From a virus, in IMG/VR virus record IMGVR_UViG_3300032288_002537, positions 1 to 38,335 of that record: a stretch of DNA of 38,335 nt; one strand, 5' to 3'. Positions 8,829 through 33,445 of the stretch are shown here, in pieces. The translations under genes were made by a program, and so were the position numbers. The notes below the pieces were generated by a model, which ran no database searches, was not told the DNA's origin, and saw only the letters and a program-made list of their open reading frames with translations. Numbering within the stretch: position 1 is the stretch's first letter; every line of letters starts with the position of its first letter.

Positions 8829-11314
8829 TGGCTATTTCAGACATCCTTTTCCGCATCTCGACCGATACGACTGCCTTCCAGCAGTCGATGGGTAAGGTCA
8901 ATGGCACGCTTGACAAAATCGACAAGCAAGCCCGGAAAACCACGTCTGGATTTACAGCTTTAGGCGCTACACTCACCAGCGCCGGAACGACGATGACGCT
9001 GGGCATCACCGCCCCGCTTGTGGCGCTCGGCATTGGCGCGGCAAAGGCGTCCGGTGATATCGACGTGCTGAAGCGCGCGCTACTTGCCACCACCGGAAGC
9101 GCTGACGAAGCGTCGAAGCAATTCGAGCGATTGCAAGATATCGCCAAGCTGCCAGGCATCGGGTTAGAAGAGGCCGTGCGCGGCTCCATCCGTCTGCAAA
9201 ATTACGGCCTGAGCGCGTCCTTATCGGAAAAGGCGTTACGCAACTTTTCCAACGCCGTGGCGGCCGGCGGCGGCTCCGCCGATGACACCTCGGAAGCATT
9301 GCGCCAGCTCGGCCAAATGTACGGGCGCGGTAAAGTCACGATGGACAACCTCCGGATCATCCTGGAGCGCGTCCCGCAGGCGGCGGCGATCATCCGCAAG
9401 GAATGGGGCAGCGAGGCGCTTGCCGACCCGGCCAAGGCGTTTGAAAAGCTGGGGCTTACATCGCAGCAGGTTATAGAGACGTTGATTGACCGTATGGACG
9501 CGGTGCCACGCGTGTCGGTCGGGTTCACCACGTCCATGGAGAACTTGGGGCAAGCCATCAAGATTGCGGCGGGCACGATTGGCGACGAGTTAACGCCGTA
9601 CATCATCGCCGCAATTCCGAAAATTGAAGAAATGGCCGCTGGCACCAAAGACGCCATCCAGGCGTTTAAGGACTTGCCGAAACCGATCAAAAATACAGCG
9701 CTGGCGATTACCGGGATCGCAATTGCGGCTGGTCCAGTGGCGCTGGTCGTCGGCAAGCTAGCGGGTGCCTTCACCGCGATTAAGACCTTCGCCATTGGGG
9801 CAGCTACGCTCCTTCAGCCGGTAGCCACTGGCATTACGCTTATTGGCACCGCTGCCGTAGCGGCTGGGCTTGCCGTGGGTAGCTTTATTTATTGGCTGAA
9901 GCAGACGCCGACGGCGCTTGCACAGCAGAAGAAGGCCGCAGACGAAGCAGCGGATGGGATGCGCAAGATTAACGAGCGCATGGGTACGGGTGCGCAGTCG
10001 GCGAAGGAGTTACCGGTTCCGTTTGGATTGGCGACCGAGGGAATTATCGCGTTTGGGAAAGCGCTGGAAAACAAGGCGCCCAAGCTCAAAGAGTTAACCG
10101 AGGAGCAAAAAAAAGCCGCCGAAGAGGCGCGCAAGGCCGCAGCGGAAGCATATAAGAACTCTTTTGCTGGGTTGGCGGAAGCCGAAAGCACCGCCAAAAT
10201 TGGCAGCGCACTCAAGGCGGCCGCATCGGCGTGGCTGGAATACAACACGATGCATGACCTTGGCGGCAAGAAAATGCCGGTCATGCGTAGCGAGTTGGGC
10301 TGGCTAGCCGAAGCATCGGACCAATACGCGGCATCCCTCCGCGCGGCCGGAGAAGCCATGAAGGCGCTGATTTTCGCCCAAACGCCGACCCCTATAGGAT
10401 TCCCTGAACTTCCCACGCGACCATTCGGGAACGGCAGCGAACTTGCGCGCGAATCAGCCGGAGCGCTCGGCATTGAAACGGAATCGCAGCGGGCGAAGCG
10501 CATTGCCGACCTGCAAAGGCACGCCGATACTTTGCGCGAATTGAACCGTCGCAGTGATCCGAATGTCTCTGGCAACATGGTCATCGAAGCAGAGGAAAAA
10601 CTAAAGGCCGCCATCGAAGGCACAGGGCGCGCGGCTACTATCAGCGGCAAGGCCCAAACCAAAGCCCTCCAGCAAGTCTCCACTGTCGTAACCGACCTAT
10701 CGCGCGGCATCGCCGGGATCATCTTCGAAGGCGGCAAGTTTGGCGACATGCTACAGAAGGTTGCCAAGCAAGCCGGGCAGGCCATCACGCGCGAGCTCAT
10801 CGAAGGCGCACTGTCAAAGCTATCGGCAAAACTCCTGGACGTTGGCGGCATCTTTGGCAAGGTTTTCGGCGGCGGCACAGGCGTAGTTAAGTCCGTATCT
10901 GGTGGCATGGGCGACCTTGGTGGGGCTGCTACGGGTGGCATTGGCGGCGCTGCTACGGCGGCGTCTTCTGGACTTGCGGGCATAATTGGGGCCGCTGGCT
11001 CTGTCGTTTCGGCTATTTCCGGCGTGATCGGCAATTTCCAAATGGCCGGGATAAACAAAACGCTTGACCTCATTGAGCACGAGGTCCGCTACAGCCAAAT
11101 CCACCTCCTCAACACGCTGAACAAAGCGAACGAGTTTTGGCCCTATATGAAGTCCGTTTGGGAATCTTTGATTCGCATGGAAACCGCTGGCGGATTTGAT
11201 GGCGGCGGCGGCACGGTCAATGTGTCTATGGCCGGGGCCTACCTCATGAGCGATTCCCAGATGGGCGACTTTGCCGACCGCCTAGCGCGGTTTCTGAAGG
11301 CTCGGGGTATCTAG
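8828..11314 (+). CDS. tape measure protein
   Basis: 828 aa, sets tail length. The N-terminal domain is the tape-measure N-terminal type (ISTDTTAFQQSMGKVNGTLDKID, then SGDIDVLKRALLATTGSADEASKQFERLQDIAKLPGIGLEEAV and GRGKVTMDNLRIILERVPQ). It is followed by hydrophobic helices around residues 290-355 (LAITGIAIAAGPVALVVG, ATLLQPVATGITLIGTAAVAAGLAVGSFIYW), an Ala/Lys/Glu-rich helical middle, and a Gly-rich C-terminal segment (FGGGTGVVKSVSGGMGDLGG). At about 2.5 kb it predicts a tail of ordinary siphovirus length. It ends in TAG, and the next gene begins at the following base in the same frame. Confidence 0.95.
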   Translation: MAISDILFRISTDTTAFQQSMGKVNGTLDKIDKQARKTTSGFTALGATLTSAGTTMTLGITAPLVALGIGAAKASGDIDVLKRALLATTGSADEASKQFERLQDIAKLPGIGLEEAVRGSIRLQNYGLSASLSEKALRNFSNAVAAGGGSADDTSEALRQLGQMYGRGKVTMDNLRIILERVPQAAAIIRKEWGSEALADPAKAFEKLGLTSQQVIETLIDRMDAVPRVSVGFTTSMENLGQAIKIAAGTIGDELTPYIIAAIPKIEEMAAGTKDAIQAFKDLPKPIKNTALAITGIAIAAGPVALVVGKLAGAFTAIKTFAIGAATLLQPVATGITLIGTAAVAAGLAVGSFIYWLKQTPTALAQQKKAADEAADGMRKINERMGTGAQSAKELPVPFGLATEGIIAFGKALENKAPKLKELTEEQKKAAEEARKAAAEAYKNSFAGLAEAESTAKIGSALKAAASAWLEYNTMHDLGGKKMPVMRSELGWLAEASDQYAASLRAAGEAMKALIFAQTPTPIGFPELPTRPFGNGSELARESAGALGIETESQRAKRIADLQRHADTLRELNRRSDPNVSGNMVIEAEEKLKAAIEGTGRAATISGKAQTKALQQVSTVVTDLSRGIAGIIFEGGKFGDMLQKVAKQAGQAITRELIEGALSKLSAKLLDVGGIFGKVFGGGTGVVKSVSGGMGDLGGAATGGIGGAATAASSGLAGIIGAAGSVVSAISGVIGNFQMAGINKTLDLIEHEVRYSQIHLLNTLNKANEFWPYMKSVWESLIRMETAGGFDGGGGTVNVSMAGAYLMSDSQMGDFADRLARFLKARGI

Positions 11315-12928
11315 GTGGGCATCTCTGTTTTAATCGCCTCCACGCTGCGCAACAGCGTCACGGCCCCCGCATCTATCTCGCTTACCCGAACACTCGGGGA
11401 ACCGGCGACGTGCGAACTAGTGACCACCGACGCAACTGGTTCAGTGGTGCCCGTCGTCGGCAACATCATTGAAATACAGGACCAGGCGTCGGACGTGCAG
11501 TTTTTTGGCACGGCTCAGGAAATCACCACCACGAGACGGGATCACACGACCGCTAATGAGTGCCGGATCACGGCCACCGACCTTAACCACGCCACCACGC
11601 GGAGACTGGCGGGCCAATACGAGTGGACCGGTAAGACGGTGCTGTACATCGTCTCTGATATCGTCACTAACTCGCTATCCGGCGACCTGACAGACGTTTC
11701 GCTGGTCGAAACCGGGCCGACGATTGACCGGTTCGCGGTGGACTATTCGACGGTCAAAGAAGCCTTTGACGCGCTGGCCGAAATGGCGGGGATGCGCTGG
11801 TATATTGACGAGCTTAACCGCCTCCACTTCTTCACGCCGCCCGCCTCGCCGGATTCGCCGTTTGCCATTACGGACGGCACGAACGTCTCCAGCCTCAGCG
11901 TGCGCGCAACGCGCGAGGACTACTGCAACACCGTCACCGCCCGAGTCGGGCAGGCTTTGCGCGACCCCGACGTGCAAGCCTTTGCGGGCGACGGTGCCAC
12001 TAAGTCATTCTCGGTTGATTACCTCATCGCGCAAGCCCCGACCGTGCGCGTGGCGGGCGTCGATGCGCTCGTCGGCATCCTGGGCGTGGACACCGGCAAA
12101 GATTGGTACTGGCAGGCCGGATCGGCTGAGATTCGGCAAGAGGACGCGGACGCCGCGCTCGCCCTGGCTGTTGCGCTGGAAGTCACTTACGTGGGCATCG
12201 ATTTGATTTATGTCGGCGTGTCGGATGCTGGCGAAATCAGCGCGCGCGCCACAGCAGAGGGCAACTCTGGCATCTACCACAAGCTGATCGAAATAGAAGG
12301 CCAGCTCACGCGGTCCGACGCCACCACGGCGGCGCAAGCCTACCTGGACGCCCACAAAGAACTGACCTATGTTCTGAGCGCGGAAACAAACGACTACAAA
12401 GAGCCCGATATCCTCACGATCCGCCCTGGCGACGTGATTTCCATGACCCGCGCGGGCTACGGCACGACGGGCAATTTCCTCGTGCGCTCGGTCAACCTCA
12501 CCCACATGGAGGGCGTTCCGGATACCGCTACTTACCAGTGGCGCGGGCGCATTGAAGCCGTCAAGGGGCCGCTCCTCCGCACTTACACCGACATCATTAA
12601 GGGCACCAGTGGCGGCGGCTCCGTGGGCGGCAGTGGGGCGGCTGTGACCGCATCGAGCGGCGCCGGGGTGTACCTGCATGAAATCGGCACGCTGACCGCT
12701 AACACAACGATAACGCCAACCGTCGCAGCTACGACCGGGGCGACGCTGTACGTTTTCGGGACTACCGGCGCATCGCCATACACGATTGCATTTCACGCTG
12801 ACTGGTTCGCCACCGTCCCAAACTCACTCATTCCGGCCGCCGCCGGTATCACGTTCTGCTTTCCGTTTGTCGGCCGCGGTGACGGCCTGTGGTGGTTCAG
12901 CGGGCCCTCGACCAACAACCAAGCATAA
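11315..12928 (+). CDS. tail hub / tail-tip protein
   Basis: 537 aa. The first 400 or so residues look like a gp27/gpD-type hub: LTRTLGEPATCELVTTDATG and a barrel (GNIIEIQDQASDVQFFGTAQEI), FDALAEMAGMRWYIDELNRLHFF, then DILTIRPGDVISMTRAGYGTTGNFLVRSVNLTHM. A Gly/Ser linker (GTSGGGSVGGSG) joins a C-terminal beta-rich module. It starts with GTG immediately after the tape measure TAG, without a spacer and in frame. Its stop overlaps the tailspike ATG by one base. No separate Dit-type gene was seen. Confidence 0.75.
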   Translation: MGISVLIASTLRNSVTAPASISLTRTLGEPATCELVTTDATGSVVPVVGNIIEIQDQASDVQFFGTAQEITTTRRDHTTANECRITATDLNHATTRRLAGQYEWTGKTVLYIVSDIVTNSLSGDLTDVSLVETGPTIDRFAVDYSTVKEAFDALAEMAGMRWYIDELNRLHFFTPPASPDSPFAITDGTNVSSLSVRATREDYCNTVTARVGQALRDPDVQAFAGDGATKSFSVDYLIAQAPTVRVAGVDALVGILGVDTGKDWYWQAGSAEIRQEDADAALALAVALEVTYVGIDLIYVGVSDAGEISARATAEGNSGIYHKLIEIEGQLTRSDATTAAQAYLDAHKELTYVLSAETNDYKEPDILTIRPGDVISMTRAGYGTTGNFLVRSVNLTHMEGVPDTATYQWRGRIEAVKGPLLRTYTDIIKGTSGGGSVGGSGAAVTASSGAGVYLHEIGTLTANTTITPTVAATTGATLYVFGTTGASPYTIAFHADWFATVPNSLIPAAAGITFCFPFVGRGDGLWWFSGPSTNNQA

Positions 12929-15900
12929 TGCGTCAATTACTCCTCATTCTCGCCACGCTCGCCGCCTTTGGGCAGGCCACCACACCGTACAAGGTTTCCC
13001 AGTCTTCTGGGAGCCTGGCGGGCCAAATCTGGCTACAGGAGCCGCGGTCTGGCGGTACCGACTGGCTGAAATTGCGCGCCGGTACGCTCGCCGGTGACCT
13101 GACGTTCACCCTCCCCGCCACCGATGGAACATCCGGCCAGTGCCTGCAAACGGACGGGGCTGGAGCCCTCTCGTTCGCCGCCTGCGCCGGCTACTGGACC
13201 CTCAGCGGCTCCGACATCTATCGCTCAACCGGCATCGTCACAATTGGCCACACGGCGCCCACCGTTCGCCTTGGGCAGAACCTCAACACGAACTACTCCG
13301 GGAATTACGGCGGCATGGCGCTTAACACGTTCTCCGCCACCGGGGCGCATGGCTCGGTTCTCGACTTCAATAAGTCCGCATCAGGCACGCTGGGCGCGCA
13401 TGGGGCGGTAGCGTCAGGCGACACCCTCGGGGTTTTTGTGTTCCGTGGCAGTGATGGCACCGCGTTCCAGCGGGCCTCCGAAGTGCTCGGGGAAGTGGAT
13501 GGCACGGTTTCCTCGGGCGTGGTGCCGGGGCGCATCCAGTTCCGCACCGCGAACAGTTCCGGCACCATGACGGAGCGATGGCGAATCGACAAATCGGGCC
13601 ACCTAACGGCAGGGACGAATAACGGCTGGAATATTGGCGGCGGGTTTAGTGGCGGGGTGGGTACCGGCAATCCGGCGGCGGTTTACGCGGAATCCAAACT
13701 CTCCAGCCGAAAAGTGACGCTCTACGACAACACCGGCAGCATTGCAATCCCCGGCGAGTGGGATCTGAACGCCGTGGCTTCTGGGGTGGGGGCCGCCGCG
13801 CAGTCCAATTTCTACATCCGCAACAACGCCGGCGCCAACATGCTCATGATCGAGGCGGTGAACGGCGGTGGAACCGTCGACCGTTCCATTTTCTACACCG
13901 ACATTATTCCCGATGCGGCCAATACCAGGAAGGTCGGAACCACTTCCGTACCGTTTTCGCAGGTCAACGCCAGGACAGCCACATTCCAGTATTTGAACGT
14001 CACGACGGGCGCGGCGGCCGGACTCGTCTTGCGAGATGCCACTGGCGCCGGCGCGGCCACCTGGGGGTATTCGGATGAATACGACGTGCGCAACTTCGGC
14101 GCGGCGTGCGATGGGACTACCGATGACACAGCGGCCATCGAGGCGGCGATCGCGGCGGGCGCGGCCAATAAGCACAAAGCGATCCTCCCACAAGGCACCT
14201 GCAAGGTAACCACTATCGATATTGCCAACTCCTACGGTGGCATTCGCGGGCAGGGCCGCAGTAACTCAATCCTCTTCAGCACCACTAACGCTCCAATCAT
14301 TCGCATTGATAACGCTGGGCCGCTCTACTACCTCGAATTTTCTGACTTCCAACTAAAGGGCTCGGGCGCTGGCACCTCGCAAAACGGTATTGAATCGGCA
14401 ACGGCAGGGTTCGGTGTCTCAACCATCCACAATCTGTATTTTGACGGTCTGTGGCGCGGCGTGAAGCTCGGGCACACGACCGACTTGGGAGACAACAATA
14501 TTCTCGATTGCGCTTTTTCCATGAGCGTGACGAACTCCGTGGGCATCGAGTCCCTGCATACGTCGAGCGGTTCGATTTGGTCGCGCAACTTTTTCGGTGG
14601 CACTGCTGAAGCGCTTGGCGCCACCAGCGGCAACCGCGCCTTCTACTTACATGGCTATGTCGGCGATACGATCATGGACGGCAATCACATGGAGGGCGGC
14701 TGGATCGGCTTTGACATCTCCTGCGACAATGGAACCTTCGCCACTGGGCTATGCTCCTACGGAGAAAACCTCGTCATCACGAGTAACAAAATCGACGGGT
14801 ACGCTCTCGATTTTCGCCTCTACAACCTGCACAACTCGACCATCCTCGGCAATCGCGGGCGCGGCGTGCTTGACGCGCAGATAACCGGCACTTCCACGTC
14901 TGGCATGATCTACGATGTCGTGGGACGCACGGACACCGGGAGCGCCATCGAGCGCGCCGGGTGGAAGCTCACCACCAGCACTGGCGACACCGCGATCAAC
15001 GCCTACGACGAAGGGCGCATTCGGCTGGGCACAGTGACCTCGAACCTCTCGAATACACGCAACGGCATCAGCATCCAAGACCAAGGTGCCTCTTCGGCTA
15101 TCGCGCTTGGTCAAAGCACCACGCGAAACATGGGGATGATGTGGGATTACAACGCCACGGCTGGCAGCGCGTATGGCTTGCTGTACACGTTCAGTTACTC
15201 CAACCCGTTGCTCTATGGCGCATCGTCTCATCAGTTCGTAGGTGCAAACGGGCCAGCTCTCGGCTCCGGGCAAAACATCGCGCCGGTGTGGGTAAGCGCG
15301 GGCAGCGGGTTTGTCGGCTATGGCTTTTACCGCACCGACGACACCAACGGCGGATGGCTGCTGGGCACATCTGGCGTTGCTGTCGGCGACTTTGCTATCT
15401 ATCAGAACCAGGGCGCTGGCGTTCCCGCTCGACGGCTGTCCATCAACCCCAGCGGCGCGGTGGATGTGGCGGGCGCATTGAGCGCCACGGCGCTTACAAT
15501 CAACACGGGCGCGGCCACGGTTGGGCACGTCTGGACCGCCACAAGCACCGGCGGCGCGGGCTCATGGCAAGCCATCCCCACTGCGCTCCCCGTCGTGGAT
15601 ACTACCGGCATCGCCAAAGGCTCATCGGACGCGACGAAGATCGCGCGCCTGGAAGTGGACGGGCTGACTACCGGAACGACGCGCGTGCTTACGGTGCAGG
15701 ACGGGGATTACATCCTGGCCGGGTTAAACATCAATCAAACCTTCGTCAATCCGCAAACCATCGCCATCGCCAGCGTCCAAACGCAGATGACCCTGGCGCA
15801 GACCAACAGTACCGCCACATACGATCCGGCGTGCCTTGTACTAGCCTCGACCGATACCGTCACCAGTACCATTTATGGCGCGGCGCGGGTGTGCGCGGGG

Positions 15901-17145
15901 TACGAGTCGGCAGCATTCACCGATGAGAAATTCGCCATCCAAACCGCCACCGGCTCCGGCACATATCAGGACGCGCTGACCATCAAAAACCAGGCCGTCA
16001 CGATTCTGGGCAGCATTGCCGCCACTGGCTCGGCTACGTTCTCATTCGTCAACGGCGTTCTCGATGGAACCATGGTCCCGCTGTTCTCTGGCAACGGCTC
16101 CATTGGATCCGCAACCTACAAGTACGGCGACTTTTTCGGCGTGCGCGGCAACTTCAACGCGGCAACCATTGGTGCGGCATCGGCTACCGTTCGATTGGGA
16201 CAGAACCTTGATGTCAATTATAGCGGCGACTTTGCAGGAATGGCGATCAACACATGGAGCGCAACGGGCGGGCACGGCGGCGTCATCGATTTCAACAAGT
16301 CCGGCTCGGGCACAATTGGCACGCAAGCGGCTGTAGTGAGCGGCGAGACGCTGGGCTTCCTTGTGTTCAGGGGCAGTGACGGGACGGCATTTCAAAGGGC
16401 CGCCCAAATCAATGGCGAAGTCGATGGAACCGTGTCATCCGGAGTCGTCCCTGGCCGCATTTTGTTGCGCACCGCAAGCACTTCCGGCGTGATGACCGAG
16501 CGTATCCGCGTGGACTCGGCCGGGCTGACCACGATCACGGGCGACCTCACGGTTACCGGTACCTGCACAGGGTGTGGCGGCTCTACGCTGCCAGTGATTG
16601 ACACCACCAACATCGTCAAGGGATCTGCCGACGCGACGAAGCTCCTGCGCTTTGAGGTTGATGGGATCACGACCGGCACCACGCGCACGCTCACACCGCA
16701 GAACAACAGCTACACCCTAGCCGGAACGGACATCGCGCAAACATTCAGCAGCACGCAGACCTTTAGCGGCACGCTGGCGGTAAGCGGCACGATTGGCGAT
16801 GACCTAACCCCGTCGTCCGATGGCACCTTCACCAATGGCACAACGTCCTTCCGCTGGGGCTCAATCGCCACTTACAACGCCGATTTCAATGGCGTTTTGA
16901 CGCTTCAGAGTGGCACAACTATCACCGGCTCAATCCTGCCAACGACGAACAATCTCTATGCCTTAGGGAATACGTCCTATCGCTGGTCCAACGTCGCCAC
17001 TGTCAACGCAAATATCAGCGGGACTCTCACCGCGCCAAGCGGCGGGACGGGCGTCTCAGCGACGAAAACCGTGCGGGACTCCGCCGGCACCGGCACCTGC
17101 ACGCTGATCTTCAGCGGCGGAATCCTGACCGGCGGCACCTGCTAA
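12928..17145 (+). CDS. tailspike with pectate-lyase-like domain and signal peptide
   Basis: 1405 aa from ATG 12928 (TAATG overlap). The N-terminus MRQLLLILATLAAFGQA is a textbook Sec signal peptide, unusual for a tail protein. An N-terminal TGQCLQTDGAGALSF-type fibre repeat follows. A module at about residues 110-230 recurs at about 1085-1205 (RLGQNL..NYSG..., GTAFQRA, GTVSSGVVPGRI). Between them, from residue 384 (DVRNFGAACDGTTDDTAAI, AILPQGTCKV) to about 700, lies a pectate lyase 3-type beta-helix expected to bind or cut surface polysaccharide. A second short repeat (TTG/NI.KGS.DATK) is at about 889 and 1223. The C-terminus ends in two Cys (GTCTLIFSGGILTGGTC). Confidence 0.85.
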   Translation: MRQLLLILATLAAFGQATTPYKVSQSSGSLAGQIWLQEPRSGGTDWLKLRAGTLAGDLTFTLPATDGTSGQCLQTDGAGALSFAACAGYWTLSGSDIYRSTGIVTIGHTAPTVRLGQNLNTNYSGNYGGMALNTFSATGAHGSVLDFNKSASGTLGAHGAVASGDTLGVFVFRGSDGTAFQRASEVLGEVDGTVSSGVVPGRIQFRTANSSGTMTERWRIDKSGHLTAGTNNGWNIGGGFSGGVGTGNPAAVYAESKLSSRKVTLYDNTGSIAIPGEWDLNAVASGVGAAAQSNFYIRNNAGANMLMIEAVNGGGTVDRSIFYTDIIPDAANTRKVGTTSVPFSQVNARTATFQYLNVTTGAAAGLVLRDATGAGAATWGYSDEYDVRNFGAACDGTTDDTAAIEAAIAAGAANKHKAILPQGTCKVTTIDIANSYGGIRGQGRSNSILFSTTNAPIIRIDNAGPLYYLEFSDFQLKGSGAGTSQNGIESATAGFGVSTIHNLYFDGLWRGVKLGHTTDLGDNNILDCAFSMSVTNSVGIESLHTSSGSIWSRNFFGGTAEALGATSGNRAFYLHGYVGDTIMDGNHMEGGWIGFDISCDNGTFATGLCSYGENLVITSNKIDGYALDFRLYNLHNSTILGNRGRGVLDAQITGTSTSGMIYDVVGRTDTGSAIERAGWKLTTSTGDTAINAYDEGRIRLGTVTSNLSNTRNGISIQDQGASSAIALGQSTTRNMGMMWDYNATAGSAYGLLYTFSYSNPLLYGASSHQFVGANGPALGSGQNIAPVWVSAGSGFVGYGFYRTDDTNGGWLLGTSGVAVGDFAIYQNQGAGVPARRLSINPSGAVDVAGALSATALTINTGAATVGHVWTATSTGGAGSWQAIPTALPVVDTTGIAKGSSDATKIARLEVDGLTTGTTRVLTVQDGDYILAGLNINQTFVNPQTIAIASVQTQMTLAQTNSTATYDPACLVLASTDTVTSTIYGAARVCAGYESAAFTDEKFAIQTATGSGTYQDALTIKNQAVTILGSIAATGSATFSFVNGVLDGTMVPLFSGNGSIGSATYKYGDFFGVRGNFNAATIGAASATVRLGQNLDVNYSGDFAGMAINTWSATGGHGGVIDFNKSGSGTIGTQAAVVSGETLGFLVFRGSDGTAFQRAAQINGEVDGTVSSGVVPGRILLRTASTSGVMTERIRVDSAGLTTITGDLTVTGTCTGCGGSTLPVIDTTNIVKGSADATKLLRFEVDGITTGTTRTLTPQNNSYTLAGTDIAQTFSSTQTFSGTLAVSGTIGDDLTPSSDGTFTNGTTSFRWGSIATYNADFNGVLTLQSGTTITGSILPTTNNLYALGNTSYRWSNVATVNANISGTLTAPSGGTGVSATKTVRDSAGTGTCTLIFSGGILTGGTC

Positions 17146-20258: not shown

Positions 20259-20942
20259 ATGGTTAAATCAGCACGGACAATCACCCGCGACCGCAAGTGC
20301 GTGGAGGCAATGCGCACGGCTGCCGAGTGTATCGGCGAGATCGAAAAGGATATGTCTCTTTTCGCGGTGACGCGCGGTCAGTTTTCCATGATCGACTGCG
20401 TGCGGCACTGCCTGGACAAAATGGGGCCGTCACGGCTGACGATCTGGACGTGGTGTATCGCCGATTACGAGATTGAGACCTTTGAGTGGCTGTTACGGAC
20501 TGGCGGCATCACGGAGGCGCTGCTGGTGATCGACCGGGCCGGCGAACAACAGGTGGCGAAGACGCGGAGCTTTCGGGACGGAAGCATTGACAAGGCCGAA
20601 AAGCAGGGCGCGCTCATGCTTCGCTGGAAGGAAAAGTTTGGGCCTGAGTCTATTCGCGTCGTGCTGAATCACGCGAAGATTGCCACACTGGACAACGGCA
20701 CGCACCAGGTGGTGATTCGCGGTTCCATGAACCTAAACCACAATCCGCGCTTCGAGCAATTGGACATCACGGAAGGCGCCGGGCCGTTTGAGCTGATTCA
20801 GGAGATTGAGAACTCATTGCCGGTACTGGGCGAGAAGTACACGCGGCGCGAAGTCGAGGACGCAACAGGCGCGCATTGTCTGTTTTCGGACGAAGAGTTG
20901 AAGCCGTTCCTCACGGCAGAATTGAAGGTGTGGGCAAAATGA
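20259..20942 (+). CDS. phospholipase D-like protein
   Basis: 227 aa. One PLD-type active-site pattern is visible: H138-A-K140 (LNHAKIATLD), then G155-S156-M-N158-L-N160 and a Glu (PRFEQLD). N-terminal part: MSLFAVTRGQFSMIDCVRHCLDK and LTIWTWCIADYEIETFEWLL, an alpha/beta unit. With one HxK motif, activity would need dimerisation, as in small PLD nucleases. It could be a nuclease or a non-catalytic PLD fold. Transcribed from its own promoter without a leader and coupled by ATGA overlap to the following P27-like gene. Confidence 0.65.
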   Translation: MVKSARTITRDRKCVEAMRTAAECIGEIEKDMSLFAVTRGQFSMIDCVRHCLDKMGPSRLTIWTWCIADYEIETFEWLLRTGGITEALLVIDRAGEQQVAKTRSFRDGSIDKAEKQGALMLRWKEKFGPESIRVVLNHAKIATLDNGTHQVVIRGSMNLNHNPRFEQLDITEGAGPFELIQEIENSLPVLGEKYTRREVEDATGAHCLFSDEELKPFLTAELKVWAK

Positions 20943-21187
20943 CGCGCGAAGAAATCGTCAAGGCACTACTGAAAGAAAAGAACCGGCCTGAAAAGGCCGG
21001 TTTGTACGCTGACTCATTTATCGAGTACCGAGCGGCGCAAGACAACATCGACAAGAACGGCTCCATCGTAGCCGACCCAAGGAGCGGCGCCGCGGTGCCG
21101 AATCCATTCTTGACCGTGCGGGATAAAGCATTTGCCCGCCTGGAATCTCTTCACAAGGCGGGCGTTAAGGCTTCGGTGCTGTGGTAG
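20939..21187 (+). CDS. second P27-like (terminase small subunit-like) protein
   Basis: 82 aa from ATG 20939. The segment SFIEYRAAQDNIDKNGSIVADPRSGAAVPNPFLTVRDKAFARLESL matches the general P27 small-terminase pattern of helix, 'G..v..p..g....NP', helix. It is shorter than full family members and lies far from the packaging operon. It could be an alternative DNA-recognition subunit or a repurposed paralogue. Codons 15-22 form a perfect GAAA-loop hairpin. It ends tail-to-tail with the minus-strand gene at 21188, with no gap. Confidence 0.6.
   Translation: MTREEIVKALLKEKNRPEKAGLYADSFIEYRAAQDNIDKNGSIVADPRSGAAVPNPFLTVRDKAFARLESLHKAGVKASVLW
20972..21002 (-). terminator. probable terminator for the minus-strand operon A
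   Basis: Perfect 9-bp stem AACCGGCCT/AGGCCGGTT (20981-20989 with 20994-21002). Read on the minus strand it is followed by CTTTTCTTTC, a T-rich tail about 190 bases beyond operon A. On the plus strand it is a GAAA-tetraloop hairpin inside the P27-like gene. Confidence 0.5.
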
Positions 21188-21343
21188 TTAGCAGCGGTGG
21201 TTTCGCTGCTTCGCCCGCGCGGCGGTCATAAGCCCGCAAGGGCAACGCGGGTACCTTAGCGGCGGGCCTCCGTTGCGCCCTCCGGTCTTGGTCTTGCGGA
21301 GGGCTTGCAAGGCGACGGCGGCGGGGTTTTTCGGGGTGGTCAT
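21188..21343 (-). CDS. operon A gene 3: MTTPKNPAAVAL protein with Cys-rich end
   Basis: 51 aa. The first 12 residues are identical to the gene at 22058-22249. The rest differs: KTKTGGRNGGPPLRYPRCPCGL and a final Cys, giving C-x-C...C that could bind zinc. The ATG overlaps the stop of the preceding minus-strand gene (ATGA). Small 'NPAAVALG+.GG+A'-type proteins are common in phages; their function is unknown to me. Confidence 0.6.
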   Translation of the reverse strand: MTTPKNPAAVALQALRKTKTGGRNGGPPLRYPRCPCGLMTAARAKQRNHRC

Positions 21344-21516
21344 CGGGTGGCCTTCCATTTGGCATAACCGAGCCCAATCGGGCAACCGGCGTAATACCAG
21401 GCGTCAATATCGCCGTTAAGGTCGGCGGCTTCGCGCCGCGCTTGGGATTCTATCATCTGCGCTTTACGCAGGGTGTCGGTGCGGGTGGTGTACCCGTAAA
21501 AAGTGACGGTGATCAT
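21340..21516 (-). CDS. operon A gene 2: small protein (58 aa)
   Basis: Starts MITVTFYGYTTRTDTLRKAQ, ends GCPIGLGYAKWKATR. It has a good AGGAGA ribosome site and an ATGA overlap with the next gene. Not recognised. A beta strand followed by a helix would fit a small partner-binding protein, but this is only a pattern. Confidence 0.6.
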   Translation of the reverse strand: MITVTFYGYTTRTDTLRKAQMIESQARREAADLNGDIDAWYYAGCPIGLGYAKWKATR

Positions 21517-21534
21517 CTCTATCTCCTGTGGTTG

Positions 21535-21879
21535 TTATTCCGCGCCGATAACGCGGGGAAGGCTTGCTTCCCAGGTGCGAAGCGCTGCCTTTGCAGCCTG
21601 GGCGGCAGTGTAAGAGGCAAAAGCCGGGCCGGTCTTGACCTGAGCGATAGCGGCGTTGACCATATCGAGCTTTTCCTGATCTAAGGCCAAGTGGCCGACG
21701 CTGGCGACGATAGCCGGGTTGACGGCGAGGCGAAGCGGCTTAACCTCGCAGGCTCTGGTGAACTTCCCGGCGCCTTCGCACTGGAAGGCAATTCCAAATG
21801 TGTGGTTGTCAGTGAAGGCTAGCATGGAAATCGTCGCGCCGGAGGCGAAGGTGATTTGGGTTTTGTCTGCGCTGTTCAT
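21535..21879 (-). CDS. operon A gene 1: MNSA-type protein (114 aa)
   Basis: Begins MNSADKTQITFASG, closely matching the start of the gene at 22505-22756 (MNSAQQTQIAFG), after which the two differ. The C-terminal half is Ala-rich helix (DMVNAAIAQVKTGPAFASYTAAQAAKAALRTWE). It is transcribed from a strong promoter whose -10 box is 6 bases before the ATG, hence probably leaderless. Function unknown. Confidence 0.7.
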   Translation of the reverse strand: MNSADKTQITFASGATISMLAFTDNHTFGIAFQCEGAGKFTRACEVKPLRLAVNPAIVASVGHLALDQEKLDMVNAAIAQVKTGPAFASYTAAQAAKAALRTWEASLPRVIGAE

Positions 21880-21885
21880 ACTTTA

Positions 21886-21914
21886 ACTATAAACCAACGA
21901 TGCATTACTGTCAA
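21886..21914 (-). promoter_or_regulatory. consensus promoter of minus-strand operon A
   Basis: On the minus strand: TTGACA (21914-21909), 17 bases, TATAGT (21891-21886), TAAAGT, then ATG at 21879. Perfect -35, 17-base spacer, 5/6 -10. The expected start of transcription is at the start codon. Confidence 0.88.
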
Positions 21915-21921
21915 CAACAAA

Positions 21922-22104
21922 ATGACCCGCCGCGCATTATTTTTTCTGGCCGCCGCTGACCCGGACAAGCCGCCACCCGCCAGCGAGCAGGCCATGAACC
22001 GCTTCGCCGGGCTCTGGAATGAATACGTCGAGCGGCTAAAAATCGGCGTTATCGACCTCAAGCAGTGGCGGGCGGTGGCGCGGGAGTGGGAGCGGCTACG
22101 GTAG
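21922..22104 (+). CDS. small plus-strand protein (60 aa), unsure
   Basis: MTRRALFFLAAADPDK, ending with a helical FAGLWNEYVERLKIGVIDLKQWRAVAREWERLR that looks like a real amphipathic protein. It begins just outside promoter A and runs opposite to both minus-strand operons. Its end overlaps the tail of the gene at 22058. There is no ribosome site or clear promoter, so expression is uncertain. Confidence 0.45.
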   Translation: MTRRALFFLAAADPDKPPPASEQAMNRFAGLWNEYVERLKIGVIDLKQWRAVAREWERLR

Positions 22105-22249
22105 CTTTCGCCCGTCGCGCCGCCACCATCTTTGCCGCCCACTCCGCGCGCTGTTCCGGCGTCTTGGCGGCGTTGGGGCCTTTGGGTACTTTAGCCAGCC
22201 CGCCGCGCCGTCCGAGGGCGACGGCGGCGGGGTTTTTCGGGGTGGTCAT
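22058..22249 (-). CDS. operon B gene 3: MTTPKNPAAVAL protein (63 aa)
   Basis: Shares its first 12 residues, and a 33-base identical stretch of DNA around its start, with the gene at 21188-21343. It continues GRRGGLAKVPKGPNAAKTPEQRAEWAAKMVAARRAKA, a basic helix of the type seen in small phage proteins, with an Ala/Pro tail. ATGA overlap with the previous minus gene. Function unknown. Confidence 0.6.
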   Translation of the reverse strand: MTTPKNPAAVALGRRGGLAKVPKGPNAAKTPEQRAEWAAKMVAARRAKATVAAPTPAPPPATA

Positions 22250-22455
22250 GCGGTCAACCCGCGATACACGGCGGAAAACGAGTGGTTGGGCATGACTGGC
22301 AAGCGTCGCCAGCGAGGATCTTCATTCTCCGCCCAGACTTCGCGGATAAACTGATAGGCGGCTTCGACGCTGGGGTACTCGCCGGACTGGAAGGCATCGC
22401 GAACGCTGGCGGCTGCTTCGGTTGCTGCGGCGGCGGATATGTTTGGGTTATTCAT
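22246..22455 (-). CDS. operon B gene 2: small protein (69 aa)
   Basis: MNNPNISAAAATEAAASVRD, then FQSGEYPSVEAAYQFIREVWAENEDPRW. Good GGAG ribosome site. It corresponds by position, not sequence, to the middle gene of operon A. Its stop overlaps the start of gene 3. Not recognised. Confidence 0.6.
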   Translation of the reverse strand: MNNPNISAAAATEAAASVRDAFQSGEYPSVEAAYQFIREVWAENEDPRWRRLPVMPNHSFSAVYRGLTA

Positions 22456-22504
22456 CTCATCTCCTCTGCGGGCATCACGCCGCCCGCTGGCGTTGGGGTG
22501 GGGG

Positions 22505-22756
22505 TTACTGAACCGTGCCCGTGGTGGGCATAGCGGACAGCGTGAGTAGCGCGGCCATTGCCGCATTGCATTCTTTGCCGCCCCAGGGCATGTATTCCAC
22601 TTCAATCGCAGAGCCATCGGCGAGCATGGCCAGCGCGTCATTCATGCTCATTTTGAAATACCGCATCGGGCAGGACTTGTACGAAATGCGGTAGGCGGAA
22701 CGCTTGCCGTTTTTGTCGGTGCCGAAGGCGATTTGGGTTTGTTGTGCGCTATTCAT
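22505..22756 (-). CDS. operon B gene 1: MNSA-type protein (83 aa)
   Basis: Begins MNSAQQTQIAFG like operon A gene 1, then diverges: KRSAYRISYKSCPMRYFKMSMNDALAMLADGSAIEVEYMPWGGKECNAAMAALL. Probably leaderless, from the promoter 6 bases upstream. Function unknown. Confidence 0.7.
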   Translation of the reverse strand: MNSAQQTQIAFGTDKNGKRSAYRISYKSCPMRYFKMSMNDALAMLADGSAIEVEYMPWGGKECNAAMAALLTLSAMPTTGTVQ

Positions 22757-22762
22757 ACTTTA

Positions 22763-22791
22763 ACTATAAGCGCTTATCGTTCTCGTGTCAA
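22763..22791 (-). promoter_or_regulatory. consensus promoter of minus-strand operon B with palindrome
   Basis: On the minus strand: TTGACA (22791-22786), 17 bases, TATAGT (22768-22763), TAAAGT, ATG at 22756. From -10 to the start codon it is identical to promoter A. A perfect 12-bp palindrome ATAAGCGCTTAT (22766-22777) overlaps the -10 box and would suit an operator; promoter A lacks it. Confidence 0.88.
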
Positions 22792-22813
22792 GTCTTTTGT
22801 GAGAAAAAACACC

Positions 22814-25180
22814 ATGAAAAAACTATTACTTTTCCTTGGCGCACTGGCGCTTCAGGCCCAATCGGTCACGCTGTCCGACACGCTCACCAGCGCCGTCGGG
22901 GGCGCCGCCTACACCGGGCGAATTACGGTAACCCTGAGCGCGCCGGGCAGCAGCCAGCCGCTCTACTACTCGACCACCTCCCTAGGCGGCTGGCAGTACA
23001 TCCTCTGCGTTGGCGTCACGGGCTCCGATTGCAGCGCGACGACCGCGGCTGGCGTGGTGACAATCCCCCTCTACGCCAACTCGACCATTACCCCGGCGGG
23101 CACCTCCTACGCGGCGCGCTACACCCCGGCGAAGGGTGCCGCATGGTCGGAAACCTGGACCGTCGAGCCCGGCGATACCAAGCTCTATCAGGTGCGCTCC
23201 ACGACCGTGCCATCGCCAACGGTCATGTTCCAGCCGTCGCAATTGACGGCGGGCGGGGCGTCCAACGGCAACTGCCTAGTCTTCGATGGCACCGTGTGGG
23301 AGCCCGCGGCCTGCGCCTCTGGTGGCGGCTCTGGAACCGTTACGAGCGTGGCGGTAACTGTCCCATCAATTCTGAGCGTCACCGGGTCACCCATCACCAC
23401 CAGCGGCACGCTCGCGCTTTCGCTGGCAACGCAGACGGCCAACCAAGTTTTCGCCGGGCCAACCTCGGGCGGCGCCGCAACACCAGCATTTCGAGCGCTC
23501 GTATCTGCCGACATCCCGGCCAACGCCGCAAACACGAGCGGCAACGCGGCAACCGCTACGGCGCTGGCGGCCAATGGCACAAACTGCACGGCTGGAAGCT
23601 ACCCATTAGGCGTGGACGCCTCCGGCAACGCCGAGGGTTGCACAGTTGCCAGTGGTGGCGGTGGCACTGTCTCATCGGTGAGCGTCACGACCGCCAACGG
23701 CGTCTCCGGCAGCGTGGCAAACGCTACGACCACCCCGGCCATCACGCTCACCCTTGGAGCGATCACGCCCACAACCATCGTCGCATCAGGGGCGATCAGC
23801 GGTTCCAATCTCAGCGGCACCAATACGGGCGATCAGACCACGATCACGGGCAACGCCGGGACCGCGACGGCGCTCGCGGCCAATGGGGCTAATTGCAGCG
23901 CTGGTCAATTCCCCCTTGGCGTCGATGCGTCCGGGGCGGCGGAGACGTGCACGGCGCTCCCCACGACCATCGCAGGCACGGCGAATCAGATCACGGCCAG
24001 CGCTTCGACCGGCGCCATCACGCTATCTATCCCGACCAGCCCGACGCTTCCCGGTACGACGACGGGCACATTCAGCGGCAACCTGACGGGTAACGTGACG
24101 GGTAATGTCTCTGGGACCTCGGGCAGCACCACGGGCAACGCGGCCACCGCCACGGCGCTGGCCGCGAACGGGGCAAACTGTTCGGCGGGAAGCTTCCCGC
24201 TGGGCGTCGATGCGTCCGGGGCCTCCGAAACCTGCACAGCGCTCCCAATCACGATCAGCGGAACGGCCAATGAAATCACGGCGTCGGCCTCGACGGGCGC
24301 GGTAACGTTGTCGCTGCCTTCGACAGTCAACCTCAGCTCGAAAACTCTCCGCGTTCCCAACGGCACCTTCCTTCCCGGCGGCTGCACCGTCGGCGACGCC
24401 TATATGGACACGGACGCGACGACGGGCTCGCGCTGGTACCTGTGCGAGTCCACGAATACCTGGGTGGTCCAGGGAGCGGCGTCTGGCGGGAGCGTGCTGC
24501 GCACTACCTATGCATCTCTTCCGGCGTGCGGTGGAAGTAATACCAATTACCAATACGTGCTGACGGATTCGATTTACAGCGCGCACTGCAATGGGACTTC
24601 GTACGCTTATTGGTCTGGGCAGAAGTACATTCCGACTCTGCCGTGGAGCAACGGCACCACCTTCGGGACCGGAGCCACTGTTACAGCCACGACTGGTAGC
24701 GTTTTATTTGACGCAGGATCTCCGACAGGTGGAGACTCTATCCGCGCCGCTATCAAAGCCATCCCAACCGCACCTTACACGATCATCCTAGACTTCGATA
24801 TGTCTCAGGCTGGAGCCGTTGGTTCGTCGTCATGCGGGCTGGTGATTACGGACGGAACCACCGCCGCATCGAACAAAGTCATTACGCTGATGCAAAGCTA
24901 CATCGGCCTCAACATGACCAAACTGACGAACGCGACGACCTGGAACTCAAATTACATTGCCTACGCGCAGGCGACTTCGCGCAATAAGTTTAGCATTAGG
25001 TTGGTGGACGACAATACCAATCGCACTTGGTCAATCTCAACTGATCGAATCAATTGGACGCAGGTCTCACAGCAGTCTAGGACCGATTTCTTGACCGCCA
25101 GCCATTACGGCTACGGGTGTAATATGACTGGTGTTTCCGGTTACGTCACAATGGTCGTAGAGGGACTCTATGCGCAGTAA
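22814..25180 (+). CDS. second tail fibre/adhesin-like protein with signal peptide
   Basis: 788 aa from ATG 22814. MKKLLLFLGALALQAQS is a Sec signal peptide. Ig-like beta-rich N-terminal region, then low-complexity fibre sequence with three copies of a 35-residue unit (GNAATATALAANG.NC.AG..PLGVDASG.AE.CT) at about nt 23529, 23842 and 24128. After copies 2 and 3 comes an 'ITISGTANEITASASTGA' unit. The C-terminal 230 residues (from about SVLRTTYASLPACGG) look like a globular receptor-binding or lectin-like domain. Proteins of this style bind host surfaces; export is inferred from the signal. Confidence 0.75.
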   Translation: MKKLLLFLGALALQAQSVTLSDTLTSAVGGAAYTGRITVTLSAPGSSQPLYYSTTSLGGWQYILCVGVTGSDCSATTAAGVVTIPLYANSTITPAGTSYAARYTPAKGAAWSETWTVEPGDTKLYQVRSTTVPSPTVMFQPSQLTAGGASNGNCLVFDGTVWEPAACASGGGSGTVTSVAVTVPSILSVTGSPITTSGTLALSLATQTANQVFAGPTSGGAATPAFRALVSADIPANAANTSGNAATATALAANGTNCTAGSYPLGVDASGNAEGCTVASGGGGTVSSVSVTTANGVSGSVANATTTPAITLTLGAITPTTIVASGAISGSNLSGTNTGDQTTITGNAGTATALAANGANCSAGQFPLGVDASGAAETCTALPTTIAGTANQITASASTGAITLSIPTSPTLPGTTTGTFSGNLTGNVTGNVSGTSGSTTGNAATATALAANGANCSAGSFPLGVDASGASETCTALPITISGTANEITASASTGAVTLSLPSTVNLSSKTLRVPNGTFLPGGCTVGDAYMDTDATTGSRWYLCESTNTWVVQGAASGGSVLRTTYASLPACGGSNTNYQYVLTDSIYSAHCNGTSYAYWSGQKYIPTLPWSNGTTFGTGATVTATTGSVLFDAGSPTGGDSIRAAIKAIPTAPYTIILDFDMSQAGAVGSSSCGLVITDGTTAASNKVITLMQSYIGLNMTKLTNATTWNSNYIAYAQATSRNKFSIRLVDDNTNRTWSISTDRINWTQVSQQSRTDFLTASHYGYGCNMTGVSGYVTMVVEGLYAQ

Positions 25181-31347: not shown

Positions 31348-32760
31348 GTGTGGCTGAAATTACCACAATCAGTTTGTTTGCCGGCGCAGGAATGCTTGAC
31401 GTCGCCGTCGATATCGCTACTGGAGGAACTTGCACGCTCGTCCGCGTGGAGAGGGAAATACCTGCGGCCGGAATCCTGGCGGCGCGTGCTGAAAACGGGA
31501 GTATTTCAGACGCTGCTATCTGGTCTGACGTGCGAACCTTCGGCGGCCGCCCGTTTAATGGCCGAGTGGACGGCATCATTGGAGGCTTCCCATGTACCGA
31601 CCTCTCCGTTGCCGGACGACAAGCCGGGCTCGACGGAGACGCCAGCGGACTGTATTTCGAGTACGTCCGAATCATTCGCGAAGTTCAGCCCAGATGGGTT
31701 TTTATTGAAAACGTCCCGCCAGTTCTCGCTTTTCCAACAGGAGGAACCGTACTGCGAGAACTTGCCGCGCTCGGGTTCAATGCGGAATGGGGAACTATTC
31801 GAGCGTCCGATGTTGGCGCCCCGCATCGCCGCGACCGGGCTTTTATCCTGGCCTACGCTGCATGCGGGGGTATTCAACGACGGGGAGGAACCGACCCAGT
31901 TCCACTCGCGGCAAGAACAATTGGCGAAGCAGAAATTCAGCACGCCGCTGGCGATGCACGTAAAAACATGGCCCACGCCACGCAGCGAGGACTCGGAGAG
32001 TTGCGGGAACCATCCTGGCGCGGTGGACTCGCTGACGGGGGCGACGAGGCAGTGGGCTACGCCGAATGCGCGGGACGACCACAACCCGTCAACGCCGGAT
32101 TCGCCGCGGACGGCGCGGAAGCTGGAGCAGGGCTGGACCATCGACCTGAACGAGCAGGCGGCCTGGTGGACAACCCCGCAAGCTCACGATGCGGCGGGTG
32201 GCAACCCGGAGAGAGTGGGCCGATTCGGGACGAAGCACGGCGGGGCAAACCTTGCGGACGATGTGACGCTCTGGAAGACTCCCGATGTCCCGAACGGCGG
32301 GCGCACGATGAGCGCGGCGGATGTGGCCGCGAACGGTGCGACGGACAAGGGGAAGCGACAAGTGGGGCTAGAGAATCAGGCGCGGTTTGCGAATTTTGCG
32401 GCTACCCAATCGACCCATCCGCCGTCCGCTACGGTTGCGCCAACTGTGAAGGAGAAGGCTTGGCCAACACCGAAGAGTCGGGACAGCAAGAGCGCGGAGG
32501 GCGAAGCGGGCATGATGCGCCAATCGCCGGATCTCAACGTGATTGCTTGCCGCTCTTCCCTCCTGGCCCCGGAGACGCCGACGCATGGCAGCGAATCCTT
32601 GCCGAGCGGCCCGACCTCGCGCCGGCGGTTGAATCCGAACTTCGTGGATTGGCTGATGTCGCTGCCTCCAGGGTGGACCGACTACGCGCCGGTGGAAACG
32701 GCGTCGTGGTACTCCAGGGTGCGTATGCGTTTAGAGTGCTTGCTGAACGAGCGGGGCTGA
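31348..32760 (+). CDS. overprinted WPTP-repeat protein in the +1 frame of the methyltransferase
   Basis: 470-codon open frame nested in the methyltransferase gene; true start uncertain (GTG 31348 or a later codon). It reads like a protein family, not noise: LPRSGSMRNGELFERP, three or more W-[PAT]-T-P-x-x-x-D units (WPTPRSEDS, WATPNARDD, WTTPQAHDA, WPTPKSRDS), and an end LNPNFVDWLMSLPPGWTD. I know this style from phage proteins encoded near Dcm-like genes, but I cannot search here. Function unknown. Confidence 0.6.
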   Translation: MWLKLPQSVCLPAQECLTSPSISLLEELARSSAWRGKYLRPESWRRVLKTGVFQTLLSGLTCEPSAAARLMAEWTASLEASHVPTSPLPDDKPGSTETPADCISSTSESFAKFSPDGFLLKTSRQFSLFQQEEPYCENLPRSGSMRNGELFERPMLAPRIAATGLLSWPTLHAGVFNDGEEPTQFHSRQEQLAKQKFSTPLAMHVKTWPTPRSEDSESCGNHPGAVDSLTGATRQWATPNARDDHNPSTPDSPRTARKLEQGWTIDLNEQAAWWTTPQAHDAAGGNPERVGRFGTKHGGANLADDVTLWKTPDVPNGGRTMSAADVAANGATDKGKRQVGLENQARFANFAATQSTHPPSATVAPTVKEKAWPTPKSRDSKSAEGEAGMMRQSPDLNVIACRSSLLAPETPTHGSESLPSGPTSRRRLNPNFVDWLMSLPPGWTDYAPVETASWYSRVRMRLECLLNERG

Positions 32761-32768
32761 AATTTTAA
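31350..32768 (+). CDS. C5-cytosine DNA methyltransferase (Dcm-type)
   Basis: 472 aa from GTG 31350 behind GGGAG. Motif I is ISLFAGAG (7-14), motif IV is GFPCTDLS with catalytic Cys82, motif VI is ENV (120-122), motif VIII is HRRDR (159-163), and the C-terminal motif is GNGVV (449-453). The long middle (170-430) has the Ala/Gly/Arg-rich phage insert and a C-x2-C...C-x2-C cluster (CEFCGYP, CANCEG). It would methylate cytosine, probably against restriction. The +1 frame is open along almost the whole gene and also looks coding. Confidence 0.93.
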   Translation: MAEITTISLFAGAGMLDVAVDIATGGTCTLVRVEREIPAAGILAARAENGSISDAAIWSDVRTFGGRPFNGRVDGIIGGFPCTDLSVAGRQAGLDGDASGLYFEYVRIIREVQPRWVFIENVPPVLAFPTGGTVLRELAALGFNAEWGTIRASDVGAPHRRDRAFILAYAACGGIQRRGGTDPVPLAARTIGEAEIQHAAGDARKNMAHATQRGLGELREPSWRGGLADGGDEAVGYAECAGRPQPVNAGFAADGAEAGAGLDHRPERAGGLVDNPASSRCGGWQPGESGPIRDEARRGKPCGRCDALEDSRCPERRAHDERGGCGRERCDGQGEATSGARESGAVCEFCGYPIDPSAVRYGCANCEGEGLANTEESGQQERGGRSGHDAPIAGSQRDCLPLFPPGPGDADAWQRILAERPDLAPAVESELRGLADVAASRVDRLRAGGNGVVVLQGAYAFRVLAERAGLKF

Positions 32769-32806: not shown

Positions 32807-33445
32807 ATGAGATACAAACCATGGGTGCCGGGAGATCCGTGCAAGCGGTGTGGCGCGCCTATACCGACGCTGGCTGATAAATTCCAGCCACACAACAGCA
32901 TCTGCAAGCCATGCGGTAACGCGCGGCAAGCGGTCAAAAGAGACGCGCTACGCGCTAAAGCCGCAGTGCCATGTACGCAGTGTCAGCGCATGATGCTCAC
33001 ATGGACCGAGCGCCGGCGCGGGACATGCAAAGCGTGCCGGGCAGACAAACGCTGCGCGTGCGGGTCCGTGCTGCTACAGAGCGACATGCGCTATGCCCGC
33101 TGCGCCATGTGCCGAAAGACAACGCGCGCCGAACGGAAAGAGATCCGCTGGTGCGGCTGTGGCGGCCAGATTGAACAGAAGCGCAGGTATGCGAAGATGT
33201 GCGCAAAGTGCGCAACGAAGGCACGCACGGAGGCCGGGCGCAAAGGGGCCGCAACCATGCGGACGATGTTGGGCAACAGCCGCCCAATGGCAACGCACGC
33301 CGTTCAGGTGCCGATGAATACGGGCGAGTATCGTCCGCCGATGACGCGGGCGGAGGCGCTGGCGCAGGATCGGGTGAACGATGACCCGGCGCGGTCGGCG
33401 TGGATTGACTCGGTGTGTGCGCGGCGGGTGGGGGTGCGGGTATGA
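32807..33445 (+). CDS. multi-zinc-ribbon protein (212 aa)
   Basis: ATG 32807 behind AAAGGGAG. Eight Cys pairs: C12/C15, C33/C36, C56/C59, C74/C77, C83/C85, C99/C102, C116/C118 and C132/C135, enough for about four zinc sites. The region 35-140 is Lys/Arg-rich. Probably nucleic-acid binding. The C-terminal third (PPMTRAEALAQDRVNDDPARSAWI) is non-metal. ATGA overlap with the helicase. Confidence 0.75.
   Translation: MRYKPWVPGDPCKRCGAPIPTLADKFQPHNSICKPCGNARQAVKRDALRAKAAVPCTQCQRMMLTWTERRRGTCKACRADKRCACGSVLLQSDMRYARCAMCRKTTRAERKEIRWCGCGGQIEQKRRYAKMCAKCATKARTEAGRKGAATMRTMLGNSRPMATHAVQVPMNTGEYRPPMTRAEALAQDRVNDDPARSAWIDSVCARRVGVRV

Follow-up and report, generated by a model that had tools for sequence, protein, structure and literature searches.

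Why does a phage genome carry, next to each other on the minus strand, two small operons that begin alike and differ in the bodies of their genes? This question is raised by the virus record IMGVR_UViG_3300032288_002537 of IMG/VR, which was analyzed over its full length of 38,335 bases (positions 1 to 38,335, hereafter the window). The original prediction was that the two operons form a platform for exchangeable accessory genes, with roles in immunity, exclusion or anti-defence. The operons themselves were confirmed: operon A extends from 21914 down to 21188 and operon B from its promoter at 22791 down to 22058, both on the minus strand.

Both operons have promoters of the consensus sigma-70 type that end exactly at the first ATG: type A1 in operon A (21886..21914, minus strand) and type B1 in operon B (22763..22791, minus strand), each with the arrangement TTGACA-17-TATAGT and a match of 11/12 to the consensus. 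TAAAGTATGAA is found downstream of both promoters, and the -10 is directly followed by TAAAGT and then by the gene-1 ATG, which in operon B lies 6 nt past the -10 hexamer. A distance of exactly 6 nt between -10 and ATG was found in all five promoter types of the platform (5/5). Since transcription is expected to start on the ATG at this distance, the gene 1 mRNA of platform operons is predicted to be leaderless. The 24 nt after the ATG contain 15-22 C or A residues in the platform, compared to a mean of 13.7 in the other genes of the window; leaderless translation is enhanced by CA repeats after the 5' AUG (PMC9031893). Promoter B contains a 12-bp palindrome, ATAAGCGCTTAT (22766-22777, minus strand), which overlaps the -10. 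An ATAA-N3/4-TTAT dyad is present in most promoter types and absent from A1; it occurs 21 times in 617 kb of records, and 20 of the 21 occurrences, which are related and not independent copies, are located in platform promoters. This distribution would fit a shared operator.

Gene 1 of operon B (22505..22756, minus strand; family a6, 83 aa, pN/pS 0.19) is predicted to be leaderless. The boundary between slot 1 and slot 2 is marked by a hairpin, GCGGGC-GGCGTGAT-GCCCGC (22468..22487, minus strand), which is directly followed by an AGAGGAG ribosome-binding site. Slot 2 is occupied by gene 2 (22246..22455, minus strand; family b10, 69 aa, pN/pS 0.33), and gene 3 (22058..22249, minus strand; 63 aa, pN/pS 0.33), a basic protein of the GRRGG...TPEQRAEWAAKMVAARRAK type, is coupled to it by ATGA. 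Operon A likewise starts with a predicted leaderless gene 1 (21535..21879, minus strand; family a1, 114 aa, pN/pS 0.27) and ends with an ATGA-coupled gene 3 (21188..21343, minus strand; 51 aa, pN/pS 0.19), here of the QALRKTKTGGRNGG...CPCG...RNHRC type. Its second gene (21340..21516, minus strand; 58 aa, pN/pS 0.19) is the partner of a1 within slot 1 and runs straight into gene 3 at the shared GCCACCCG; this operon lacks the hairpin. The same gene pair is followed in G019 and G016 by the hairpin and a slot-2 gene, which shows that operon A of the window has lost slot 2, and we infer that this occurred by a deletion through short homology. The small middle gene that had been assigned to both operons is thus a slot-2 gene in operon B, and in operon A it is a slot-1 partner left behind after slot 2 was lost.

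The surroundings of operon A contain a terminator-like stem of nine pairs followed by CTTTTCTTTC (20981..21002, minus strand), a consensus match only, which could be the end of the operon A transcript; sites that resemble terminators are only about twice as frequent as in shuffles. A conserved plus-strand gene of 60 aa, which had been overlooked in the original prediction, is located between the operons and divergent from promoter A (21922..22104). It is found with 66-100% identity in 21 other records and falls into two subfamilies. The window gene at 20939-21187 matches Terminase_4 (P27-type small subunit) and lies far from the large subunit.

When operons A and B were compared by BLASTN, only two convincing blocks were obtained: one at the promoter and gene-1 start (53 nt, 87%), the other at the gene-2/gene-3 junction (38 nt, 95%). 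The gene 3 starts share 33 identical nt, while in 200 shuffled pairs no shared word exceeded 14. The shared plan of promoter, MNSA.. start and ATGA-coupled gene 3 is confirmed by these blocks and by the 33-nt identity, and the possibility that the two operons are unrelated to each other was rejected. That only promoters and gene beginnings are conserved while the bodies differ is borne out by BLASTN for the rest of the operons but not for gene 3. Two forms of gene 3 exist, a basic one at position B and a short one with a cysteine tail at position A, and they are related, since a hybrid in G012 joins the basic body of B to the cysteine tail of A.

Further copies behind the same promoter had been expected in related phages, and such copies were found. 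The promoter pattern matched 24 loci in IMG/VR, and a search with the hairpin pattern and the gene-3 start added further contigs. The platform is present in 30 other IMG/VR contigs (29 relatives and G030), which are metagenome contigs of uncertain completeness and include some near-duplicates. In INPHARED, tblastn searches with gene 1 of A, gene 1 of B, gene 3 and family b6 gave no matches. Altogether, 38 operons were parsed, and they share the order promoter and start codons, slot 1, hairpin and ribosome-binding site, slot 2, ATGA, gene 3; slot 1 contains two genes in G001, G016 and G019. The hairpin is near-identical in nearly every platform operon and, as RNA, modestly more stable than shuffles (z -1.2 to -2.4). 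Because a T run is lacking, it is not an intrinsic terminator.

The parsed operons contain 10 gene-1 families and 11 gene-2 families in 24 pairings; a further operon of G026 with new gene-1 and gene-2 families was left out of these counts. In the 27 non-redundant operons, 24 pairings were observed and 22.7 are expected under random assortment. Family a2 has six gene-2 partner families, and b10 has six gene-1 partner families. Seven families (a1, a2, a4, a6, b3, b9 and b10) were found at both the A and the B position: a1, for example, also occupies position B in G019, and a6 is found at position A in G013 as well as behind promoter type C in G023. In the first phage lineage, each position keeps its promoter type and its gene-3 type: A1 promoters go with an A-type gene 3 (18/18) and B1/B2 promoters with a B-type gene 3 (16/16). 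The same family was found at both positions of one genome in 0 of 14 cases with about 1.6 expected, a difference too weak to claim that duplicates are avoided.

This independent assortment bears on whether the operons could be autoregulated toxin-antitoxin or addiction modules, with gene 3 as repressor-antitoxin, gene 1 or 2 as toxin and a palindromic operator. Such modules would lead one to expect small ATGA-coupled genes and a promoter palindrome like the one of 12 bp that overlaps the -10 in promoter B, and the profile of the basic gene 3 is weakly similar to the first helix of an actinobacterial IHF-like DNA-binding protein (E 0.04). However, toxin-antitoxin partners should travel together, whereas genes 1 and 2 assort independently. 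Family searches found no toxin, antitoxin or HTH family, the latter including Pfam and NCBIfam searches with gene 3, and an addiction module would make little sense in a phage without integrase (see below). A role of the fixed gene 3 as antitoxin is conceivable, but overall we consider this explanation improbable.

Comparisons between sister phages located the breakpoints inside the conserved blocks, here called connectors, in at least three cases. With G001, the window shares 99% identity over a stretch that begins at 21868, 12 nt into gene 1 of A, and reaches 23300; the remainder of operon A is different. With G008, the match runs up to 22268, immediately before gene 3 of B, and resumes at 22733, at the gene-1 start, which indicates an exchange of genes 1 and 2 in operon B. 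The slot-1 module of operon A of the window (21333-21892) is found in position B of G019 with 95.6% identity. In G006 the flank of B is joined to the spacer of the A promoter, a junction as would be expected from recombination between the two promoters. In families with at least two alleles, pN/pS was 0.06-0.50, for every family and at all three gene positions. Such purifying selection in all slots shows that the genes encode real, maintained proteins and are not debris.

Exchange also reaches a second phage lineage, consisting of G030, G023, G002 and G027. In G030, its longest member, the terminase, portal and head families differ from those of the first lineage. The second lineage has a fifth promoter type, TTGCAA-17-TATTAT, located 6 nt before the ATG, and 683 bp of cargo are shared between G030 and G012 with 99.1% identity. 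A truncated 56-codon piece of the window gene 20939-21187 adjoins the platform in the second lineage (96%), suggesting an origin of the platform in the first lineage.

An ordinary explanation for these patterns would be mosaicism without any special platform, with the conserved starts and promoters left by random recombination and selection for expression. The genomes are indeed mosaic throughout, and neighbouring genes are found at 95-100% identity versus 30-50% or are absent. Against this stand the breakpoints in the connector blocks, the occurrence of connectors twice within one genome as well as in an unrelated lineage, and the 10 and 11 unrelated families that these connectors enclose; we regard ordinary mosaicism as unlikely, though it keeps some weight. 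The prediction of a platform for exchangeable accessory genes is upheld by the independent assortment of genes 1 and 2, the connector breakpoints and the exchange with the unrelated lineage.

Genes from outside appear to enter the platform as well. About 26 relatives of family a2 occur in other phages (30-48% identity), and most of them start like MKKITKATFKSFIKKN, with the pattern K-I-T-[KL]-[AST]-T-F-K-S-F-[IV]-K-K. In the platform copies, MNSA[HR]NTNR replaces this start, and the match to the relatives mostly begins at about residue 5-11, after MNSA. The platform therefore seems to supply not just the promoter but also the beginning of the protein, and, judged by homology, at least one foreign gene body has been captured. 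One of the a2 relatives is a Flavobacterium phage gene in INPHARED, located beside genes for DNA polymerase III epsilon and an NTP-PPase. L092-L117 and L130 belong to a widespread small phage protein family (FKSFIKKN ... GIWLV ... NCCG), for which no Pfam or NCBIfam match was found.

Several observations concern other parts of these genomes. The helicase and methyltransferase genes of the window (33415-35804) are 95-99% identical in most relatives, including G002, G023 and G027 of the second lineage, and the versions in G005 are at 43-45%. These identities point to more exchange between the two lineages. Several putative tail or fibre proteins with apparent Sec signal peptides (MKKLLLFLGALALQAQS, MRQLLLILATLAAFGQA) are encoded at 22811-25180 and 12931-17145 of the window and at 10840-13580 of G030 (L131), that is, in both lineages; such signals are odd for virion proteins. 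The region 31350-32768 of the window contains two long overlapping plus-strand frames, one of which matches DNA methyltransferases.

The original prediction had also considered immunity or exclusion in lysogens. A search of 15 records, several of which span 32-44 kb, detected neither a tyrosine integrase (PF00589) nor a serine recombinase or resolvase, and temperate life is thus unlikely. Relatives of the promoter and the terminase were both absent from 84,980 species genomes of GTDB in a host search. These results tell against lysogenic-conversion morons, that is, genes for superinfection immunity or exclusion that would be expressed from the prophage. The arrangement is the usual one of morons, with independent sigma-70 promoters opposite to the late genes and extra genes with their own promoter between unrelated late genes; in view of the missing integrase and the lack of matches in GTDB, lysogenic conversion is highly improbable and was rejected, and this part of the prediction is not supported. 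Integron gene cassettes were likewise rejected, as no match to PF00589, the family of IntI-type tyrosine recombinases, was found in the 15 records.

For cargo and gene 3, no family of known function was found in Pfam, PHROGs, NCBIfam or PADLOC, nor did a relative among the known acr or aca genes turn up. Most cargo proteins had no database match at all; family a10 contains a DUF5710-like motif (E 1.8e-5, below the cut-off), and b5 matches phrog_6319, whose function is not known. AlphaFold models of gene 1 of A and of B were too poor to use (pLDDT 43 and 48). The cargo most likely consists of early anti-defence or host-takeover genes, a reading based on their small size and variability, the independent host-type promoters, the exchange between unrelated phages and a precedent in archaeal viruses (PMC11065993). 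A role of the platform in early phage-host conflict is likely.

We therefore favor, with a probability of roughly 0.7, a two-slot exchange platform for small accessory genes, in which connectors serve both expression and recombination and the cargo acts in early takeover or anti-defence. Each operon would be built from fixed connectors and changeable inserts. A strong host-type promoter together with the CA-rich first codons MNSA.. would allow any in-frame body to be transcribed and translated at once. Slot 1 would take one or two genes, followed by the GC hairpin and the ribosome-binding site; slot 2 would take one gene, and the constant small basic third gene, coupled by ATGA, would close the operon. 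Besides carrying expression signals, the connectors would provide homology for recombination between co-infecting phages, the presumed route, so that genes 1 and 2 could be swapped independently, between positions and between unrelated phages. Since the promoters are sigma-70-like and point in the direction opposite to the late genes, the cargo is most likely made right after DNA entry, and it would be used for host takeover or against host defences. Later expression is probably limited by gene 3 or by a putative repressor acting on the ATAA-N3/4-TTAT dyad.

The PeSL (promoter-early stem-loop) cassettes of T4-type phages have reportedly been treated by Arbiol (2010) and Comeau (2014). The platform shares with them the modular shuffling of small genes: in these cassettes, a conserved early promoter and a stem-loop likewise flank small variable genes that are shuffled by recombination (PMC4503421). 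The stem-loop of the cassettes is a terminator, whereas in the platform it lies inside the operon before the ribosome-binding site and lacks a T run. The platform promoter, moreover, ends at a predicted leaderless ATG, a constant coupled third gene closes the unit, and the platform is common to two unrelated phage lineages. The window is also not T4-type: its 38-kb genome encodes a tape measure protein and has terminase, portal and head families of its own, and no T4-type gene set was seen in it.

Other known systems share single features with the platform. The start-associated sequences (SAS/ESAS) of cluster K mycobacteriophages likewise consist of a conserved sequence that recurs where many unrelated small genes begin, and an inverted repeat is present at about half of the sites (PMC3203893). 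The ESAS repeat is tied to a gene family (PMC3203893), whereas the platform repeat comprises promoter and first codons, and the same family is found behind different promoter types. In archaeal viruses a strong conserved promoter likewise precedes many unrelated small accessory genes; it was used to predict anti-defence genes, two of which were validated (PMC11065993). The platform differs in its bacterial-type promoter, multi-gene units, constant third gene and demonstrated module swapping. In acr-aca operons, which combine anti-CRISPR genes with a conserved regulator, variable small genes are likewise followed by a conserved small gene, and the promoter contains a dyad (PMC9638941). Aca proteins are HTH regulators, whereas gene 3 of the platform matches no HTH family, and the platform has two independent variable slots. 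What is new is the anatomy: the predicted leaderless capture start, the junction of hairpin and ribosome-binding site, and the coupled constant third gene.

A broader reading, to which we give somewhat less than an even chance, is that the platform works generally as a device for capturing foreign genes, made up of a leaderless promoter/start connector, a hairpin/ribosome-binding-site connector and, at the end, a coupled gene. Phages that are unrelated but infect the same host would then draw on a shared pool of dozens of small anti-host or anti-defence proteins and trade them by homologous recombination, without a dedicated recombinase. If the proposed platform is real, its connectors could be used as bait, and metagenome genes found between them would be candidate anti-defence or host-takeover proteins, comparable to the use of the conserved early promoters of archaeal viruses. 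It would also provide a clean natural case for a long-standing question, the origin of phage mosaicism at gene boundaries, as the platform boundaries are at the same time expression signals and the breakpoints are directly readable.
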